Positions 13,366 through 21,220 are shown, counted from the first letter of the stretch. The stretch is DNA of 64,000 nt from Halanaeroarchaeum sp. HSR-CO (GCF_024972755.1 NZ_CP087724.1:992001-1056000); one strand, 5' to 3'. Program-made: numbers and translations. The notes: generated by a model from the sequence alone, not told the origin.

Positions 13366-14007
13366 ATGGCCCAACAAATCCTCGAAAAACCGAAGAACGG
13401 ACACCTTAGCGAGCGCGAAGTCCAGGTCGTCTTCGAGATCACGCCCAAAGCAGCCTGTTTCATGGACGACCTCGAGGGCGAGATCTCGAACGTTGAACTG
13501 TACTTCCCCGAGGGCGAATGCCACTCGGACGTGACGGTCTGTCGGGACGAGGGTGAGAAACGCAGTGTCGAGGTCTTCAACCACAAGGGAGATGTCTGTG
13601 ACAACTGCCCGGGGACGGTCTTCAACGAGTTCGATCTCGTCCCCCGCTTCCAGGACCGGAGTCGGAAGGGGTTCATCGTTCAGGTTCATCTGCCGTCCAA
13701 CGATCAGCTCTCCGAGCTCGTCGCAGACCTCCGCGAGGTCTCCGAGTTCGTCCGTATTCTCCGCATCGTGGACGTTCGCCAGAGCCAACTCGACGACGTC
13801 ATCGGTGAAGTAGATTTCACGCAGTTGACCGACAAACAACGAGACGCGCTCAAAGGGGCCGTCGACGCCGGGTATTACGGCCTCTCACACGATGCCTCTC
13901 TCGAGAACCTGGCCGAGGAGTTCGGCATCTCGACGTCCGCCCTCTCACAGCGACTCGCCCGTGCCGAGCAGAACGTGATGGCACAACTCTTCCGCGACGA
14001 CGAGTAG
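13366..14007 (+). CDS. Bat-type HTH regulator with N-terminal cysteines (NarO/DmsR-like)
   Basis: The 213-residue protein ends with a bacterio-opsin-activator-type HTH (residues 154-209, LTDKQRDALKGAVDAGYYG then LAEEFGISTSALSQRLARAE). The N-terminal half carries Cys31, Cys52, Cys59, Cys78 and Cys81, the last two as CDNC. Haloferax NarO and DmsR, regulators of anaerobic respiration genes, have the same layout of N-terminal cysteines plus bat HTH. The neighbouring sulfur-reductase operon makes a role as its oxygen- or redox-responsive regulator likely, but this is inferred. A paralog with matching cysteines lies at the other end of that operon. Confidence 0.85.
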   Translation: MAQQILEKPKNGHLSEREVQVVFEITPKAACFMDDLEGEISNVELYFPEGECHSDVTVCRDEGEKRSVEVFNHKGDVCDNCPGTVFNEFDLVPRFQDRSRKGFIVQVHLPSNDQLSELVADLREVSEFVRILRIVDVRQSQLDDVIGEVDFTQLTDKQRDALKGAVDAGYYGLSHDASLENLAEEFGISTSALSQRLARAEQNVMAQLFRDDE

Positions 14008-14131
14008 TTCGCCGGATTGTTCGGGGTCGCCCACTCGTTCGGGTCGATTCGCTGGTCGCAGACGGCGCCACCACGTCTATCGAATGGAGCACCGACGGTT
14101 TTGCCTGCAACCGCTCCGATGGGGGAAAGAT

Positions 14132-14178
14132 GGTAATTAGTAGCAAGCTTGGTAATTAGTAGCAAGCTTGGTGATTAG
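14132..14178. repeat. 19-bp tandem direct repeat upstream of rhodanese gene
   Basis: The unit ggtaattagtagcaagctt occurs twice with no gap (14132-14150 and 14151-14169). A third, shortened and imperfect copy (ggtgattag) follows at 14170-14178. The tract is far more A/T-rich than its surroundings. It lies between the end of the first HTH regulator and the promoter of the rhodanese gene, about 57-100 bases before the TATA box. A spacing of 19-20 bases corresponds to roughly two helical turns, so stacked regulator binding on one DNA face is plausible. Confidence 0.85.
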
Positions 14179-14179
14179 C

Positions 14180-14191
14180 TCCATATTTTTC
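14180..14191 (+). terminator. T-rich element, shared with 15583
   Basis: The 12-mer tccatatttttc follows the direct repeats. Exactly the same 12-mer occurs at 15583-15594, just downstream of the rhodanese gene. Archaeal termination occurs on short T runs, so this could end the transcript of the upstream HTH regulator. Position before a promoter in both cases means a regulatory role is also possible. Confidence 0.4.
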
Positions 14192-14234
14192 GGGGTCAAA
14201 CGTGAACAACGACACGACATAATATCTACCCCCA

Positions 14235-14266
14235 TATAAAACCTGAACAGGTCCCGAGTTATGGTC
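14235..14266 (+). promoter_or_regulatory. Promoter of the rhodanese lipoprotein gene with shared core motif
   Basis: A TATAAA box (14235-14240) is followed by ACCTGAACAGGT, a perfect ACCTG-N2-CAGGT inverted repeat (14241-14252), and then CCCGAGTTATGGTC. Almost the same sequence follows the TATAAA at 15672 in front of the molybdoenzyme genes. Transcription should start near 14262, giving a leader of about 34 bases before the ATG at 14296. The motif sits between TATA box and start site, a common location for archaeal repressor contacts. Confidence 0.72.
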
Positions 14267-14295
14267 ATCCTCTTTGTCCAAGTGGGGTTCAGTGT

Positions 14296-15555
14296 ATGGA
14301 GAAGAACCTCAACCGCCGACGGTTTATCAAGATGACCGGCGTCGCTGGCATGGCCGCGATCGCCGGCTGTTCGGGTTCCGACGATGGTGAACCGACCGAA
14401 GCACCCACGGAGGAACCGACTGCAGAGCCGACCGAGGAACCGACCGAAGAGCCGACCGAGGAACCGGAGAAGCCGGATCCGACGGACACCGAGAATGCGT
14501 TGATCGAGCCCGCCACACTCAAGGAGTGGCAGGACGCGGGCATCGTCAACACCGACGACACTGCAGACGACCGTGTCGTCATTCTCCGCATCGATACGGA
14601 CGGGTACGACAGCGGTCACGTCCCCGGTGCCGTAAAATGGTCGACCTCCGAGGGCGAGGGACCGGCGGTTCTGACCGAGACGCGTCTCGAGGGACTGGCG
14701 GAGACGCCGACGATGGTCGCGAGCGGCTCGATCATCGACGAGGTCATCCAGAGCGCCGGCGTCGGTCAGAACACGACGATCGTTCTGTCGGGCAAGGCAC
14801 CGATGCGGATGGCTCGGGCGTACTGGACTCTTCGGTACTGGGGTTTCCCGCGTGAGCGTGTGAAAGTCCTGCAGGGCGGAACGACGGTCTACGGCGAGGA
14901 GTACGACCTCGCGTTCGAGGCGCCCGACCACCCGACCAGCAACTACACGGTCAAGGCGTTCGGCGAGCCCAACTACGATCTGCGCTACGGGCTCAACCAG
15001 ATGATTCAGGAAGTGGACGCCAAGAACGCGGGCGAATCGGAGGCCTCCTTCCTCGACCTGCGCGGGGACGCGACGCCGAAACCCGCCGGGGCCGTCGCCG
15101 ATCCGCCGGCGACGTACCTGCAAGGCGACAGCTTCAGCGGGGACTTCCCGTGGCAGGACGCGGACACCATCTCCGAGCACGTCTGGGGACTCGAGGGCGT
15201 CGAAGAGGGACAGAAGATCATCACCTTCTGTGGCAGCGGCTACCGCGCCGCGATGGGCTTTTTCGCCCTGGACGGCATTCTCGGATACGACAACGTCACG
15301 CTGTGGGACGGCTCCGTCTCGCGGCAGTGGGTCCACTACGATGGCAACAACGACCCGGTGCCCAACGACGCCTGGCGCGTCGACCAGCAGGACCGTACGG
15401 TGGGCGACACCGGCGAGAGTTCGCTGACGATCGATCCGGATCTCAACGAGGAGTTGACCGACCTGGCGACCATCGACGCGAACCAGGTCAAGAAGGCCGA
15501 CATCCAGTACATGGGCGGCGACACGAGCGGCGGTGGCTTCGGCTGCGGCTCGTAG
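14296..15555 (+). CDS. Tat-exported lipoprotein with two rhodanese domains (sulfurtransferase)
   Basis: The 419-residue protein starts with a twin-arginine signal (NRRRFIKMTG) and a lipobox ending at Cys25 (AIAGC), so it should be anchored on the outer face. A Thr/Glu/Pro repeat linker (about residues 32-64) leads to two rhodanese domains. The first (about 70-205) has the substrate-loop position LSGKAPM without a cysteine, so it looks inactive. The second (about 245-350) carries Cys312 in the loop CGSGYRA and should carry persulfide. The C-terminus is Gly-rich with a lone cysteine (GGGFGCGS, Cys417). Next to a Psr-like reductase, it may bind and deliver polysulfide sulfur, as Sud does in Wolinella; that role is inferred. 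Confidence 0.9.
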   Translation: MEKNLNRRRFIKMTGVAGMAAIAGCSGSDDGEPTEAPTEEPTAEPTEEPTEEPTEEPEKPDPTDTENALIEPATLKEWQDAGIVNTDDTADDRVVILRIDTDGYDSGHVPGAVKWSTSEGEGPAVLTETRLEGLAETPTMVASGSIIDEVIQSAGVGQNTTIVLSGKAPMRMARAYWTLRYWGFPRERVKVLQGGTTVYGEEYDLAFEAPDHPTSNYTVKAFGEPNYDLRYGLNQMIQEVDAKNAGESEASFLDLRGDATPKPAGAVADPPATYLQGDSFSGDFPWQDADTISEHVWGLEGVEEGQKIITFCGSGYRAAMGFFALDGILGYDNVTLWDGSVSRQWVHYDGNNDPVPNDAWRVDQQDRTVGDTGESSLTIDPDLNEELTDLATIDANQVKKADIQYMGGDTSGGGFGCGS

Positions 15556-15576
15556 AGACCCTGAACGCCTCGTCCC

Positions 15577-15597
15577 AAATTTTCCATATTTTTCATT
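15577..15597 (+). terminator. T-rich terminator after the rhodanese gene
   Basis: Two T runs (aaatttt and tattttt) occur 21-42 bases after the rhodanese stop codon. They include the 12-mer tccatatttttc also seen at 14180. Archaeal RNA polymerase and FttA both stop on U-rich tracts. This supports the rhodanese gene being transcribed on its own, with the reductase operon driven by the promoter at 15672. Confidence 0.5.
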
Positions 15598-15671
15598 ACC
15601 GTTAGCACCGCATATCGGGTCGCTGTCGTGCGATTAGTTCCGGCTGAACGGTTCGCAGTCACGCACCCTCT

Positions 15672-15702
15672 TATAAAGCCTTAACCGGTCCCGAGTGTGG
15701 TC
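15672..15702 (+). promoter_or_regulatory. Promoter of the molybdoenzyme operon with shared core motif
   Basis: TATAAA (15672-15677) is followed by GCCTTAACCGGTCCCGAGT and then GTGGTC. Aligned to the rhodanese promoter, the 25 bases after the TATA box differ by four substitutions and one single-base gap. The matched part includes the identical block GGTCCCGAGT. Start of transcription should be near 15699, about 43 bases before the small ORF at 15742. The similarity indicates common control of both transcription units. Confidence 0.72.
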
Positions 15703-15741
15703 TATCTCCGTTGGTCTCCTGGATTTACCCGTAGAACAGTC

Positions 15742-15849
15742 ATGACGCTAATCGTAGATCAGACGCCGGACGGTACGGTCGGACGGCACGGTTTCGAAGC
15801 GGGACAGTGGACGGTACGACCCACTGCGCCTTCGGGGTGTAAACGATGA
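15742..15849 (+). CDS. 35-residue upstream ORF coupled to the molybdoenzyme gene
   Basis: An ATG located about 43 bases after the predicted transcription start opens a 35-codon frame (MTLIVDQTPDGTVGRHG to PSGCKR). It ends with TGA overlapping the ATG of the catalytic subunit in the sequence ATGA. Such overlaps signal translational coupling. The peptide is not hydrophobic and has one Cys. I do not recognise it. It may be a leader that sets translation of the reductase, or a small accessory protein. Without it the operon would have a 5' leader of about 147 bases, unusual in this group. Confidence 0.5.
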   Translation: MTLIVDQTPDGTVGRHGFEAGQWTVRPTAPSGCKR

Positions 15850-18155
15850 GTACGGGCGGACGCGACGGGACCTCCCTCACCCGTCGGACGCTCCTGAAAG
15901 CCGGTGGAGCCGCCGCCGGTGCCGCGGCATTGGGCGGCTGTCTGTCCTCCGGGGACGGTCCAGCGGACGAACCGTCCGGTGGCGAGGCGACGACTGCCTT
16001 CGGTAACTGCTGGATGTGTTCGCACAACTGCGGACAGAAGGCGTACGTTCGGGACGGTTCCGTGGTCAACCTGACCGGCGTCGATGGGCACCCGCGTGGG
16101 AGTGCAGGCCCAGACACCGAGGGAACGCTTTGCCCGAAGGGCCTCGCACAACTGGATAAGACCCACGATCCCAAGCGCATCAAGGAACCGCACGTTCGCA
16201 AGAACGGGGAACTGCAGAAGGTGAGCTGGGACGAGGCGTTCCAGTACACCGCCCAGCGACTCGTCGAGTTCAAAGAGCAAAACGGCGCCGAGACGCTCCT
16301 CGACGCGACGAGCTGGGCCGAGACGCCGATCTTCTCGACCGTTTGGCGCGAGCTCTACGGGACTCCGGAGCGGATCAGCCGTGGGATCCACGTCTGTGCC
16401 GGACCGACGTTCGTCACGGGCGGCATGATGGGTGTCGGATCGAACAACCGCGTTCCCGACTATCAGAACTCCAAGTACATCATCGCCTGGGGCCGCAACC
16501 AGCTCAACTCCTTCGCCGGCCAGTTCGAGGCGAAGGGAACGCTGGAAGCCATCGAGAAGAACGGCGCGAAACTGGTGACGATCGACCCCCAGCACACGAT
16601 CACCGCCGAGAAGTCGGACAAGTGGCTCCCGATCAAGCCCAGAACGGATGGTGCACTGGCCCTGGCGATGGCCAACGTGATCATCGAGGAGGAGCTCTAC
16701 GACCAGGAGTTCGTCGAGAACTACACCTACGGCTTCGACGCCTACCGCGAAGCGGCCGCGGACATGCCACCCGAAGAGGCGGCCGAGATTACGGGCATTC
16801 CCGCCGACGAGATCCGCGAGGTCGCTCGCGGGTTCGCGGAGGCCGCACCGCAGGCCGGCATCTCCGTCTGGACCGGCACCTCGCAGATGGGCAACGGCTG
16901 GAAGGCAACCCAGAACATCACCGCGCTCAACGGGCTGGTCGGCAATATCGACCGACCCGGCGGACTCCGTCTCTGGGAGTACGCCAGCACTGCCTCGTTC
17001 GGCGAGGTTTGTGAGATGGATTACACGAATCGGGCCGAGTTCAAGGAGCCGGCCATTACCAAGTACGACGAGTACTCGGACTACCCGGTCCGGCATATCA
17101 CCGATATCGCTCACAACCTCGTGCCCGAGATGGTCGACAACGGCCACATCAACGGCATCGTCGTTCACCACGACGACCCCCTGAAGGACGGGAACGCCGA
17201 CGCGTGGATCGAGGCAATCGAGAAGATGGACCTGGTTCTCTCCATCGATGCCTACTGGAACGGCGTCTCGCGCAACGCGGACATCGTCCTCCCGGAGGCG
17301 ACCCAGCTCGAAAAGGACACTCTCGGGACCGGCAACTGGTCGGCGTACCCCAACCACAAGTGGATCACCGGCTCGAAGGCCGCCGTCGACCCGCAGTGGA
17401 ACACCAAACCGGACTTCGACATCCTGGTCGGCATCGCCAATGCGATGGCCGAGGAGACCGGCGAGGAGGACTGGACGGTCTTCCAGCAGTGGGACGATCA
17501 CGAGGACTTCATCGACGATCAGCTATCGGTCCTCGATCTCACGCTCGAGGATATCGACAGCGGCGAAGTCAACTACGAACTGGTCGAATCCTACGATTAC
17601 GAGAAGTGGAAGGATAACGACAACTTCACCTTCCGGTTCGATCTGGATCAGGTCGGGAGCTTCGCCCAGGCGGCCGAGGAGGCCGGGATGACCACCGCGC
17701 CAGAGTGGATCCCGCCGGGCGAGTACGGCGACGAGATCGGCGGCGACTATCCGCTCGAGTTCTACGACGTTCGCTCCGTGTTCTTCTCGCACGGCAGCAA
17801 CCAGCCCCACGACCGGCTCCGCGATCAGTTCGCGAAGCGCAACCGTCTCGATGACGAGGACTACCGCGGTAACTACCTCCACTTGAACCCCGCCGACGCG
17901 GAACCCCGTGGTATCGAGTCCGGGGACATGGTTCGCGTCGAATCGCGAACCGGGAGTGGCGAACTCATGGCGGTCGTCTCCGAACGCGCACGCCCCGGAT
18001 TCGTCACCGCCGAATACGGGTTCGGCGAGACGTCGGCGACGCCCGACGGAGAAGGGATGAACACGATGACGCTACACGACAAACAGATGGATCCGATTAC
18101 GGGACAGGTGGACAGGCACATCGCCGTCGAGGTCGAGTCGGCGGGGGGTGAGTGA
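15846..18155 (+). CDS. Molybdopterin oxidoreductase catalytic subunit, polysulfide/thiosulfate reductase type
   Basis: The 769-residue DMSO-reductase-family protein has a Tat signal (LTRRTLLKAGG) and a possible lipobox at Cys32 (LGGC), placing it on the outer face. Cys55, Cys58, Cys62 and Cys96 (CWMCSHNC and LCPKG) bind a [4Fe-4S] cluster. The Mo ligand region RGIHVCAGPT shows Cys184, as in polysulfide (PsrA), thiosulfate (PhsA) and formate/nitrate periplasmic enzymes, and unlike Ser in DMSO reductases. The C-terminal cofactor-binding domain is complete (YLHLNPADAEPRGIESGD). With ferredoxin and NrfD subunits next door it forms a PsrABC-like complex. Arsenate or tetrathionate reductase activity cannot be excluded from sequence. 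Confidence 0.9.
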   Translation: MSTGGRDGTSLTRRTLLKAGGAAAGAAALGGCLSSGDGPADEPSGGEATTAFGNCWMCSHNCGQKAYVRDGSVVNLTGVDGHPRGSAGPDTEGTLCPKGLAQLDKTHDPKRIKEPHVRKNGELQKVSWDEAFQYTAQRLVEFKEQNGAETLLDATSWAETPIFSTVWRELYGTPERISRGIHVCAGPTFVTGGMMGVGSNNRVPDYQNSKYIIAWGRNQLNSFAGQFEAKGTLEAIEKNGAKLVTIDPQHTITAEKSDKWLPIKPRTDGALALAMANVIIEEELYDQEFVENYTYGFDAYREAAADMPPEEAAEITGIPADEIREVARGFAEAAPQAGISVWTGTSQMGNGWKATQNITALNGLVGNIDRPGGLRLWEYASTASFGEVCEMDYTNRAEFKEPAITKYDEYSDYPVRHITDIAHNLVPEMVDNGHINGIVVHHDDPLKDGNADAWIEAIEKMDLVLSIDAYWNGVSRNADIVLPEATQLEKDTLGTGNWSAYPNHKWITGSKAAVDPQWNTKPDFDILVGIANAMAEETGEEDWTVFQQWDDHEDFIDDQLSVLDLTLEDIDSGEVNYELVESYDYEKWKDNDNFTFRFDLDQVGSFAQAAEEAGMTTAPEWIPPGEYGDEIGGDYPLEFYDVRSVFFSHGSNQPHDRLRDQFAKRNRLDDEDYRGNYLHLNPADAEPRGIESGDMVRVESRTGSGELMAVVSERARPGFVTAEYGFGETSATPDGEGMNTMTLHDKQMDPITGQVDRHIAVEVESAGGE

Positions 18156-18157
18156 TC

Positions 18158-18808
18158 ATGGCGGCCGAAGGCGATCACTGGGTCTTCTACTTCGACCCGA
18201 ACCGGTGTATCGGGTGTCACGCCTGTACGGTCTCGTGTAAGCAGTACCACGACCGCGAATCCGGTGCCGACGACTGGCGGACGGTCACGCACCACGAGAA
18301 GGGTACCTTCCCGGACGTCAGCGAAGTGCCGATCTCGATGTCGTGTATGCACTGTCACGACGCGCCCTGCGAGAAGGTCTGTCCGACCAACGCCATCGAG
18401 AAACGTGAGTCCGACGGCATCGTGACCATCGACCGCGAGAAATGTATCGGCTGCAAGTACTGCGGCTGGGCCTGTCCGTTTGGCGCGCCAACCTACGGCG
18501 ACGAGGGGCTCATGTCGAAGTGCAACATGTGTATCGGTCAGGGTCCCGGGTCGGGTGCGGACGCCGATCCTGCCCCGAAACACGAGCAGGACGGAATCGG
18601 CGCCGTGCAGCCGAACTGCGTCTCCGACTGCGTCGGCGACGCGATCAAGGCCGGCCCACAGAGCGAGGTTATCCAGGAGGCCTCCCAGGCGGCGGCGAAC
18701 CGATTCAAGTCTAACAACGGCCGCGTGATCGTCGAGCCCTTCGAGGACAGTACCGCCGCCGTCGACGGCACCAATGACGTCATCACGCCGTTCAACGCAG
18801 GGGACTGA
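18158..18808 (+). CDS. Four-cluster [4Fe-4S] ferredoxin subunit (PsrB/DmsB-like)
   Basis: The 216-residue protein contains 16 cysteines in four sets: 17/20/23/27, 63/66/71/75, 96/99/102/106, and 122/125/154/158. The usual spacings (CIGCHACTVSC, CMHCHDAPCEKVC, CIGCKYCGWAC, CNMC) are present. This is the electron-wire subunit between membrane and Mo subunits in PsrABC/DmsABC complexes. It has no signal of its own and is presumably exported with the catalytic subunit. An in-frame GTG at 18152 overlaps the previous stop codon, but the ATG at 18158 begins the family-like sequence. Confidence 0.93.
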   Translation: MAAEGDHWVFYFDPNRCIGCHACTVSCKQYHDRESGADDWRTVTHHEKGTFPDVSEVPISMSCMHCHDAPCEKVCPTNAIEKRESDGIVTIDREKCIGCKYCGWACPFGAPTYGDEGLMSKCNMCIGQGPGSGADADPAPKHEQDGIGAVQPNCVSDCVGDAIKAGPQSEVIQEASQAAANRFKSNNGRVIVEPFEDSTAAVDGTNDVITPFNAGD

Positions 18809-18811
18809 GCC

Positions 18812-19957
18812 ATGAGTGCGATACCAGGCGGCACGGAGTGGCTGTGGTTGGAGTCGCCTCACTGGGCGGAGTTCATCGCGATGTACCTGTTCCTGGGCGG
18901 GGTGAGCGGCGGCGCCTACGTCACCTCGGCGTGGGCGAGTTTCATGAAGAGCCTGATGGTGAGTGGCTCCCGACTCGGTGACATCTTGCTGGGGGACCCG
19001 GGTGACCCCCACCACCACTTCGCGTGTGCGGAGACCTCGCGGTGGGGATCGCTGATCGGCGTGCTGGGCATCGCGGTGGGTGGCGTCGCGTTGCTCTCCC
19101 ACCTGGGCGCGCCGCTACGTGCGCTGACCTTCCCGGTGTTGTTCACGAACTTCGGTTCGTGGCTGGTGATCGGGACGTGGGTGATCGTGCTGTTCGCGAT
19201 CTGGGCGGTCTTCGAGACGCTGTGGCTGCACTTCGGGTCCGATCTCGCTCACCCGACGGGTCTGAGCCTGTTCCCACGGAAGATCCTGCAGTGGATCGAC
19301 GGGGTAATGCCGTGGCGTACGGAGCGGGGCATCACGTGGCTGTTAGACAGGATCGCGGACGTGACCCGACCGCCAGGAAAGCTGTGGGGCGCGTTGCGAA
19401 TCGTCGGCGGCGTGCTGTCGCTGACGTTGATCGGATACACGGCGATGCTGTTGAGCGACGTCACGGTCGTGCAGTTCTGGACGCGGCCGTACCTGCCGGT
19501 GATCTTCCTGTTGAGCGGCGTCTCGACGGGGATCTCGGCGGCGCTGCTGGGAACGGTCCTGAGCGGCGGGGCGCTCTCGCGTGTGAACCACCGGTTCTGT
19601 CTGACCGACGACGCGATCATCGTCGCGGAGCTGGTGGCGATCGGGCTGCTGTTGTCGTTCCTGGCGAACACGCCGAACATGGGTTCGCAGGCGAGTCTGA
19701 CGGCGCTGTTCGACAGCTACCAGCTGCTGTTCGTGGGCGGGGTGTTGGTGTTCGGAACGGTCGTGCCGGTGATCCTGTCGCTGACGGTGACGGTGTTACA
19801 TCAGTTCACGAGCTTCGAGGAGCGGCCGTGGGGCGAGGAGCTGCTGACGGGCGGGTACGCGGCGAAGTACGCGCTGGTGCTGGTCGGCGGGTTCCTGTTG
19901 CGCTACGTGGTGTTGATGGCAGCCGTCAAGAGCCCCCTGGTCGTACCTGGACTGTAA
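18812..19957 (+). CDS. NrfD/PsrC-type membrane subunit (quinol-interacting)
   Basis: The 381-residue protein has about eight transmembrane helices. The first contains EFIAMYLFLGGVSGGAY, a typical NrfD/PsrC opening. A conserved region HLGAPLRALTFPVLFTNFGSW follows in the third segment. It should anchor the complex and take electrons from menaquinol. The start is three bases after the ferredoxin stop codon, within one operon. G-rich codon choice (gtg, ctg) differs somewhat from the neighbours, as often seen for membrane proteins. Confidence 0.9.
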   Translation: MSAIPGGTEWLWLESPHWAEFIAMYLFLGGVSGGAYVTSAWASFMKSLMVSGSRLGDILLGDPGDPHHHFACAETSRWGSLIGVLGIAVGGVALLSHLGAPLRALTFPVLFTNFGSWLVIGTWVIVLFAIWAVFETLWLHFGSDLAHPTGLSLFPRKILQWIDGVMPWRTERGITWLLDRIADVTRPPGKLWGALRIVGGVLSLTLIGYTAMLLSDVTVVQFWTRPYLPVIFLLSGVSTGISAALLGTVLSGGALSRVNHRFCLTDDAIIVAELVAIGLLLSFLANTPNMGSQASLTALFDSYQLLFVGGVLVFGTVVPVILSLTVTVLHQFTSFEERPWGEELLTGGYAAKYALVLVGGFLLRYVVLMAAVKSPLVVPGL

Positions 19958-19960
19958 GCT

Positions 19961-20596
19961 ATGGACGACCAGACGCAAGCAGCGTGGTCCGAGGCCGTGA
20001 TCGTGCTCTCGAACTGTCTGCGCCATCCCGACGAATCCGTCCGCGAGGCCGTCTCCTCACCGGCCGGCCTCTCGGCGGCGGTCGAGTCGATCGAACGGGC
20101 TGGCGTCGAGCCGCCAGCGGCACCCGCGATCGAGGACCGTGATCTCACCGAGGAGTACGAGGGGCTCTTCGGGGCGTTCCGAACGCCCTTCGCGCCACCG
20201 GCCGCGTCGCCGTACAAGGAGTGGTACGAGGGGCGAGAAGGACTCATGGAGGGGCCGCCAGCGACCGCCATGGAACGACGGTACGCCGCGATCGGCGCCG
20301 ACGTTCCCGAGGCCTACCCGGCGGATCACGTGGCCCTCGAGCTTGAGTACGCGAGCATCCTGCTCGATGCGGGCGAAATCGAGGAACTCCGTCGGTTCGT
20401 CGAGTCCGAGCTGGACTGGATCGATGCTTTCGCGAGACTCGTGGAGGATGCCGCTGCCGAGGCACCGTTCCACCGGTGGAGCGTGAAGACACTGGTCGAA
20501 GCGATGGCGGCCTTACGCTCCGAACTCGACGTCGACGGACCGTCGGAGGAACGTATCGATCGGATGGTCGACCGGGCACGAACGAACGTGGTGTGA
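19961..20596 (+). CDS. TorD-family maturation chaperone
   Basis: The 211-residue helical protein contains the TorD/DmsD-type core, with a central YEGLFGAFRTPFAPPAASPYKEWY segment and the signature PADHVALELEYASILL. These chaperones bind the Tat signal of a molybdoenzyme and hold it until cofactor insertion. The gene begins three bases after the NrfD stop codon. Its presence in the operon supports a Tat-exported Mo catalytic subunit encoded upstream. Confidence 0.87.
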   Translation: MDDQTQAAWSEAVIVLSNCLRHPDESVREAVSSPAGLSAAVESIERAGVEPPAAPAIEDRDLTEEYEGLFGAFRTPFAPPAASPYKEWYEGREGLMEGPPATAMERRYAAIGADVPEAYPADHVALELEYASILLDAGEIEELRRFVESELDWIDAFARLVEDAAAEAPFHRWSVKTLVEAMAALRSELDVDGPSEERIDRMVDRARTNVV

Positions 20597-20602
20597 TCAC
20601 GA

Positions 20603-21220
20603 ATGGGTGCCGACCGGGACCGTGAACTCGAACGATGGGGACATCGCGTCGAGTACCGGGTCCGCGCACCCGAACGCTGCCCGATTCGACAACTGGACGT
20701 CGAGGTGACCGGCATCTCCGTCTTCTGGAACGACGGGACGATAAACTGCGATTACGTGACCCGGAACGCCGACGGCGAGATCACCGTCCATCACGCGAGC
20801 CAGTCGGACACGACCGACTGTCCCTGTGCGGTGGTCTTCGAGAACGACGCGATTCCACGGGTTCGACCGGCCCGGTCCGGGACCGACGGCGATCTGTGTT
20901 TGACGACGTACGTCCAGAGCCCAGAGCGTGCAGAACAGATCACTGCGGCGCTTCGCGAGGTCTCGTCGTCCTTCGAGGTGATCGATTACCGGGAGATCGG
21001 GGCCGGTGAGGAGTGGAGTGCCCAGCTCGATCTGGCAGGGCTTACGGACAAACAGCGTGAGGCGATCAGAATGGCGATGCTCGAGGGCTACTACGAGATG
21101 CCGAGCGAGACGACGGTCGAAGAGCTGGCGGCCATGACCGGCATCTCGAGTTCCGCGTTTGCGACCCGCCTCCGCAAGGCCGAACGTGAGATCTTCTCCC
21201 AGCTACTCGAGTACGTCTGA
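20603..21220 (+). CDS. Second bat-type HTH regulator with N-terminal cysteines
   Basis: The 205-residue protein ends with a bat-type HTH (residues 147-205, LTDKQREAIRMAMLEGYYEM then AAMTGISSSAFATRLRKAE). Cysteines sit at 26, 49, 73, 75 and 99. The pair at 73/75 (DCPC) aligns with CDNC of the regulator at 13366, so the two are paralogs that frame the reductase operon. It begins six bases after the TorD gene and is probably cotranscribed, giving possible autoregulation. Its 3' end overlaps the convergent DoxX-like gene by 18 bases. Confidence 0.83.
   Translation: MGADRDRELERWGHRVEYRVRAPERCPIRQLDVEVTGISVFWNDGTINCDYVTRNADGEITVHHASQSDTTDCPCAVVFENDAIPRVRPARSGTDGDLCLTTYVQSPERAEQITAALREVSSSFEVIDYREIGAGEEWSAQLDLAGLTDKQREAIRMAMLEGYYEMPSETTVEELAAMTGISSSAFATRLRKAEREIFSQLLEYV

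Follow-up and report, generated by a model that had tools for sequence, protein, structure and literature searches.

Gene content of the locus

The locus lies in a 64,000-nucleotide stretch of the genome of Halanaeroarchaeum sp. HSR-CO (the window; C1:992001-1056000 of a 2.79-Mb assembly of two contigs). It encodes a rhodanese-domain lipoprotein, a PsrABC-type molybdoenzyme and a maturation chaperone, accompanied by two regulators and two copies of a promoter element:

13366–14007, plus strand: HTH_10 (bat/DmsR-type) transcriptional regulator at the left end (Pfam HTH_10, 61 bits; DmsR_N below cut-off); orthologues lie upstream of the rhodanese gene in relatives
14131–14178, strand not given: intergenic 19-bp tandem repeat TGGTAATTAGTAGCAAGCT, 2.5 copies, before the rhodanese promoter
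14235–14259, plus strand: TATA box and shared operator-like element, rhodanese promoter, one of two genome-wide matches; similar sequences precede the gene in relatives
14296–15555, plus strand: ExtH-family Tat lipoprotein with two rhodanese domains (NF040901, 250 bits against a cut-off of 200); lipobox C25, active site C312, tail C417, with the cysteines conserved in 50 of 50 proteins
15672–15696, plus strand: second copy of the shared promoter element, psrA promoter, located by the genome-wide pattern search; related sequences in relatives
15846–18155, plus strand: PsrA-like Mo-bisPGD catalytic subunit, Tat lipoprotein; FeS cysteines 55/58/62/96, probable Mo ligand C184
18152–18808, plus strand: PsrB, four [4Fe-4S] clusters (16 cysteines in four motifs)
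18812–19957, plus strand: PsrC, predicted NrfD-type quinol-oxidising membrane anchor (Pfam NrfD, 71 bits)
19961–20596, plus strand: TorD/NarJ-type maturation chaperone, PsrD (Pfam PF02613)
20603–21220, plus strand: HTH_10 regulator with a DmsR_N domain at the right end (Pfam)

Gene calls and HMM matches bear out the gene set and order of the initial annotation, namely a rhodanese lipoprotein, a Tat molybdoenzyme, a four-cluster ferredoxin, NrfD and TorD. The regulators that it placed at both ends are both HTH_10 proteins, but the left one lies outside the range of 14132–21220 that it had given, and its start at 14132 falls in the upstream intergenic 19-bp repeat rather than at the start of a gene. 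The psrA leader contains the beginning of a 35-codon reading frame (15742–15849; MTLIVDQTPDGTVGRHG...), whose stop codon shares bases with the psrA start codon (ATGA); short reading frames also occur in other psrA leaders. Searching the host genome with NrfD_2 (PF14589) gave no match and was uninformative, and a plasmid search gave no match.

The rhodanese is an ExtH-family protein with three invariant cysteines

The N-termini of the rhodanese (RRRFIKMTGVAGMAAIAGC) and of PsrA (RRTLLKAGGAAAGAAALGGC) each comprise a Tat signal and a lipobox, and for both proteins 12 of 12 relatives keep the lipobox cysteine. Since each combines a twin-arginine motif with an invariant lipobox cysteine, both are predicted to be Tat lipoproteins. 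Residues 91–351 of the rhodanese matched solved tandem sulfurtransferases in a structure–sequence search. Pfam detects only domain 1 in the window protein itself and two rhodanese stretches in the orthologues from loci L040 and L043. These matches support a tandem-domain protein, with an active-site cysteine in domain 2 only: C312, in the loop CGSGYR, aligns with the active-site-loop cysteines of 1uar, 3aax and 3hwi, and the corresponding loop of domain 1 has no cysteine.

The protein matched the NCBIfam model ExtH (NF040901) with 250.4 bits against a cut-off of 200, over profile positions 19–430 of 430. Three cysteines, in the lipobox, the domain-2 active site and the C-terminal tail, are invariant in all 50 ExtH proteins compared (19 haloarchaeal rows from 18 loci and 31 rows from Desulfuromonadia), whereas none of 19 ordinary haloarchaeal sulfurtransferases, used as a control, has the lipobox or tail cysteine. 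The tail cysteine is the final residue in 38 of the 50 proteins and is preceded by a Gly/Ser- or Asp/Gly-rich stretch. A literature search found no report of such a conserved tail cysteine, an absence that is weak evidence. An AlphaFold model of the rhodanese (pLDDT 44.5, from eight sequences) was too poor to place the tail relative to the active site. One Desulfuromonadales locus (L052:7833-10358) encodes a fused double ExtH of 841 amino acids, apparently with four rhodanese domains, that ends in a single terminal cysteine and has multiheme cytochromes downstream.

The description of this protein as Sud-like, made in the initial annotation, survives as an analogy only, for the protein is a lipid-anchored, tandem-domain member of ExtH. 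We rejected homology to Sud because the solved-structure matches were tandem rhodaneses of the TST/MST type, with no molecule named Sud among them, and because the architecture differs: Sud-type proteins have a single rhodanese domain and no lipid anchor, and the window protein has tandem domains and a lipobox.

The catalytic subunit resembles Psr and Phs enzymes

The PsrA-like protein is of the Mo-bisPGD type, with N-terminal FeS cysteines at 55, 58, 62 and 96 and an RR motif, and a four-cluster FeS subunit and an NrfD anchor are encoded beside it; these are features of Psr/Phs enzymes. C184 is invariant in 12 of 12 sequences, aligns with the corresponding cysteine of Thermus thermophilus PsrA and is probably the Mo ligand. 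Among catalytic-subunit HMMs, PhsA scored best (284 bits, below its cut-off of 694), followed by Fdh (246), DmsA (208) and ArrA (141). The best solved structure was T. thermophilus PsrA (2vpw, 7e-52).

We placed the subunit in a tree of 26 proteins, in which the T. thermophilus row is partial and was rebuilt from a printed alignment; a quick 58-row tree was not relied on. All haloarchaeal Psr proteins fall together in a single deep clade (100/100); the group nearest to it consists of ArrA-like proteins (95/93), and long branches lead to both. Constraining the haloarchaeal clade to group with bacterial Psr/Phs and T. thermophilus PsrA cost 9.5 log units with a p-AU of 0.073, so that this grouping is not rejected. 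Labels of the reference proteins in this tree are weak, because the searches of Desulfuromonadia for PhsA and ArrA returned only members below the cut-offs. A firm position among arsenate or nitrate reductases, named at the outset as the outcome that would count against a sulfur-reducing role, was not found, yet neither was a firm position with characterised Psr.

ArrA itself was rejected as an identity, given a score of 141 bits against a cut-off of 1600 and a position outside the ArrA-like clade, although that clade is the nearest neighbour. Identities as an arsenate, nitrate, DMSO or tetrathionate reductase were likewise set aside on low HMM scores and on the presence of separate Dms, type II, Fdh and Ttr-like enzymes in the genome. 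By best HMM, the eight molybdoenzymes of the superfamily encoded there are the window Psr, a second Psr, three Dms-like enzymes, one type II enzyme, one Fdh and one Ttr-like enzyme.

The second psr operon carries a psrC (L103:11542-12687; G000:C1, about 107.5–108.7 kb) whose DNA is 95% identical (1092/1146) to the window psrC at 18812–19957, and the PsrA proteins of the two operons are only about 51% identical. On these identities, the membrane anchor looks like the product of recent gene conversion between the operons. No TorD gene lies between psrC and the regulator in the second operon (L103:12687-12941); the same operon in a same-genus genome, G093, has one (L109:11014-11682).

The rhodanese gene recurs beside psrA in haloarchaea

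A rhodanese orthologue was present in 12 of 292 genomes of the class, including the host, with 51–100% identity; the next matches, at about 30% identity, were ordinary sulfurtransferases. The gene-order search proposed in the initial annotation returned the order rhodanese–psrA–psrB–NrfD–TorD in all 12 orthologue-bearing genomes, a recurrence that exceeds chance. Among named genomes, a single-protein query matched none and an alignment query retrieved relatives, adding six distinct loci with psrA within 3 kb (L045, L046 and L048–L051; L047 is the same locus as L042 and was counted once). All 18 distinct haloarchaeal orthologue loci therefore adjoin psrA. The psrA gene is upstream and divergent in L046, an HTH gene intervenes in L042/L047 and L048, and L050, from Halobiforma nitratireducens, has the same gene order as the present locus. 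By name, the relatives of the rhodanese come from halophilic archaea, namely Halodesulfurarchaeum sp., Halobiforma nitratireducens and Natrialbaceae and Haloferacaceae MAGs, with one exception, a Desulfuromonadales bacterium. An exported rhodanese gene next to psrABC and a chaperone gene, as found in the window, is the arrangement of rhodanese-linked haloarchaeal Psr operons.

Relatives of psrA (E ≤ 1e-150) were found in 22 of the 292 genomes. In seven genomes with psrA of the nearest clade, the neighbourhood fetched around it contained no homologue of the rhodanese, and none lay beside the second Psr paralogues. Judging by the seven genomes, not every Psr depends on the rhodanese. The window rhodanese is closest to that of L033, from another family (71%), and the window psrA to that of the same-genus L036 (87%); since their nearest relatives differ, the rhodanese gene may have been exchanged.

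A promoter element is shared by the rhodanese and psrA genes

The 25-bp element TATAAARCCTNAACMGGTCCCGAGT has exactly two matches in the 2.79-Mb genome with three mismatches allowed, both perfect, 61 bp before the rhodanese gene and 174 bp before psrA; a reversed control pattern had none. Because the pattern was built from its two sites, the perfect fit is by construction, and the result is the missing third site. In most relatives, similar sequences stand before each of the two genes. The rhodanese gene and psrA look to be co-regulated through this element, and the module seems to be transcribed as two units under common control. One transcript for the whole operon is doubtful, given a TATA-plus-operator element before the rhodanese gene and again before psrA.

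extH and psr genes are also linked in bacteria

Among Desulfuromonadia genomes holding both an ExtH above cut-off and a Phs/Psr-like enzyme (E ≤ 1e-120), extH and psrA-like genes lay within 15 kb of each other in 8 of 11. Unlinked genes would be expected to do so in about 0.1 genomes, a rough estimate based on 30 kb per genome of about 4 Mb and not corrected for relatedness. Locus L196 carries extH–extI–extJ–psrA–psrB–psrC–extM–extN on one strand, with ExtH, ExtI, ExtJ, ExtM and ExtN each above its curated cut-off. Most other fetched bacterial extH loci have 5-, 12- and 10-heme cytochromes nearby. A gene and HMM survey of the archaeal operon found no porin ExtI and no multiheme cytochromes, the parts of the Ext conduit; PsrABC is there instead.

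Proposed function and alternatives

We consider it likely that the module serves polysulfide or elemental-sulfur respiration, with the ExtH-family rhodanese supplying sulfur to an outer-face PsrABC; C417 may act as a relay. PsrABC (a Tat-exported, lipid-anchored Mo enzyme with a four-cluster FeS subunit and an NrfD quinol anchor, matured by TorD) would reduce sulfane sulfur at the outer face of the membrane, menaquinol electrons reaching PsrA through PsrB and PsrC. Cys312 in domain 2 would take up sulfane sulfur from polysulfide, or from S8, as a persulfide; domain 1, lacking a catalytic cysteine, is probably structural; and Cys417 on the C-terminal tail would probably hand the sulfur on to PsrA, as a swinging relay or as a docking thiol. 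We infer the substrate in the host organism, the direct hand-over and the role of the tail cysteine, reading the gene content, export signals, anatomy, cysteine conservation, linkage and shared promoter element observed here alongside reports on relatives. Support comes from the 18 of 18 loci beside psrA, PhsA as the best HMM and T. thermophilus PsrA as the best structure, from an element that occurs only twice, cysteines conserved in 50 of 50 proteins against 0 of 19 controls and linkage in 8 of 11 Desulfuromonadia genomes, and from the expression of orthologous Psr on sulfur. According to passages of two proteomic reports on close relatives, H. formicicum growing on sulfur contains more of PsrA HTSR_1347, co-transcribed with a periplasmic rhodanese (HTSR_1348), than of any other Psr (PMC5437934), and strain AArc1 expresses its Psr on sulfur only (PMC6176080). 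The outer-face Psr-type reductase served by a rhodanese that the initial annotation proposed agrees with our evidence and with these data. Against it stand the seven psrA neighbourhoods without a rhodanese and the ArrA-like nearest neighbours on long branches.

The preference of PhsA among the HMMs, though far below cut-off, and the resemblance of the rhodanese to thiosulfate sulfurtransferases would also suit a module that is mainly a thiosulfate reductase, in which the tandem rhodanese splits thiosulfate and PsrABC/PhsABC reduces the sulfane sulfur released. We think this improbable, because the putative thiosulfate reductase of H. formicicum is a different molybdoenzyme, HTSR_1522, and thiosulfate was not reduced by cells that had been grown on sulfur and contained abundant rhodanese-linked Psr, as stated in passages of one report (PMC5437934). 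Reduction of another oxyanion (selenite, tellurite, selenate or arsenate) seems more remote still: NCBIfam names ExtH after the Geobacter ext conduit, a selenite/tellurite operon, deletion of extI, the neighbour of extH, harms selenite and tellurite reduction in Geobacter (PMC5877670), and the haloarchaeal clade adjoins ArrA-like proteins at 95/93, but the low ArrA score, the unrejected clade with bacterial Psr given the long branches, and expression of orthologous operons on sulfur in the passages cited above all argue against it.

Another reading is a rhodanese that is co-regulated but mechanically separate, for example a helper that brings S8 and polysulfide into solution or renders them harmless at the surface, with no direct hand-over to PsrA. 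The occurrence of psrABC without a rhodanese in some genomes, the separate promoters and an apparently exchangeable gene, as judged from the differing nearest relatives, are in keeping with such a helper. We regard it as unlikely, since every rhodanese gene of this kind in the haloarchaeal sample had psrA close by, the shared element precedes no other gene and the extH–psrA linkage recurs in bacteria.

Sulfur supply by ExtH to PsrABC, our preferred reading, may extend across domains. Tentatively, and with somewhat more doubt than confidence, we suggest that ExtH is a surface sulfane-sulfur shuttle, in which the domain-2 cysteine loads and a swinging C-terminal cysteine arm delivers to PsrABC in haloarchaea and some Desulfuromonadia, or to a porin–multiheme-cytochrome conduit in Geobacter. 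On that view, the 'selenite/tellurite' ext conduit of Geobacter would be at root a route of elemental-sulfur or polysulfide respiration. Such a bridge to bacteria could matter in that it suggests what the little-understood extHIJKL cluster does, and how insoluble sulfur is handled outside the membrane, in a form open to testing; Geobacter sulfurreducens strains lacking extHIJKL already exist (PMC6148476). The tail cysteine is a single residue on which the relay idea can be tested by mutation.

Comparison with known systems

Wolinella PsrABC is fed polysulfide by the sulfurtransferase Sud, a small, soluble, single-domain periplasmic dimer. The idea of a sulfurtransferase supplying Psr is the same here; the window protein differs from Sud in being lipid-anchored and tandem-domain, with a cysteine tail.

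The operon is real and its type well supported, and it is largely known. Rhodanese-containing Psr operons of sulfur-respiring haloarchaea were published with proteomics in 2016–2018 (Sorokin et al. 2017, 2018; PMC5437934, PMC6176080), so that the core idea of the initial annotation is already in the literature, and the distinctness it claimed for a surface-anchored rhodanese reserved for a haloarchaeal reductase had been anticipated. As far as passages of these reports describe them, the operons of Halodesulfurarchaeum (HTSR_1347/1348), Halanaeroarchaeum, Natronobacterium gregoryi, Halobiforma nitratireducens and AArc1 share the gene set of the operon in the window: an exported rhodanese, PsrABC, a chaperone and bacterioopsin-activator-type regulators. 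The operon studied here is another member, with no essential difference, and confirms published haloarchaeal sulfur respiration. The same passages do not mention the lipobox, the ExtH family, the tail cysteine or the shared promoter element; ExtH membership, the three-cysteine hallmark, the bacterial extH–psrA linkage and the shared element are new beyond what was published.

In Desulfurivibrio dismutans (2025), passages of the report describe a rhodanese-domain lipoprotein, RS06465, in a Psr operon as a proposed sulfur supplier, and other lipoprotein sulfurtransferases beside a porin (PMC12142623). RS06465 is like the window protein in its setting and unlike it in having three rhodanese domains.

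ExtH of Geobacter relatives, a homologue that is likewise a lipoprotein with tandem rhodanese domains and keeps all three invariant cysteines, accompanies an outer-membrane porin and multiheme cytochromes in the extHIJKL(MNOPQS) conduit (PMC6148476, PMC5877670), whereas the archaeal module has neither and uses PsrABC. What makes the locus interesting is the connection that ExtH draws between the Psr of archaea and the conduits of bacteria, together with the conserved tail cysteine, rather than the operon itself: one lipoprotein family stands with PsrABC in archaea and with a porin–cytochrome conduit in Geobacter relatives, which are metal-reducing bacteria, with mixed operons between them.
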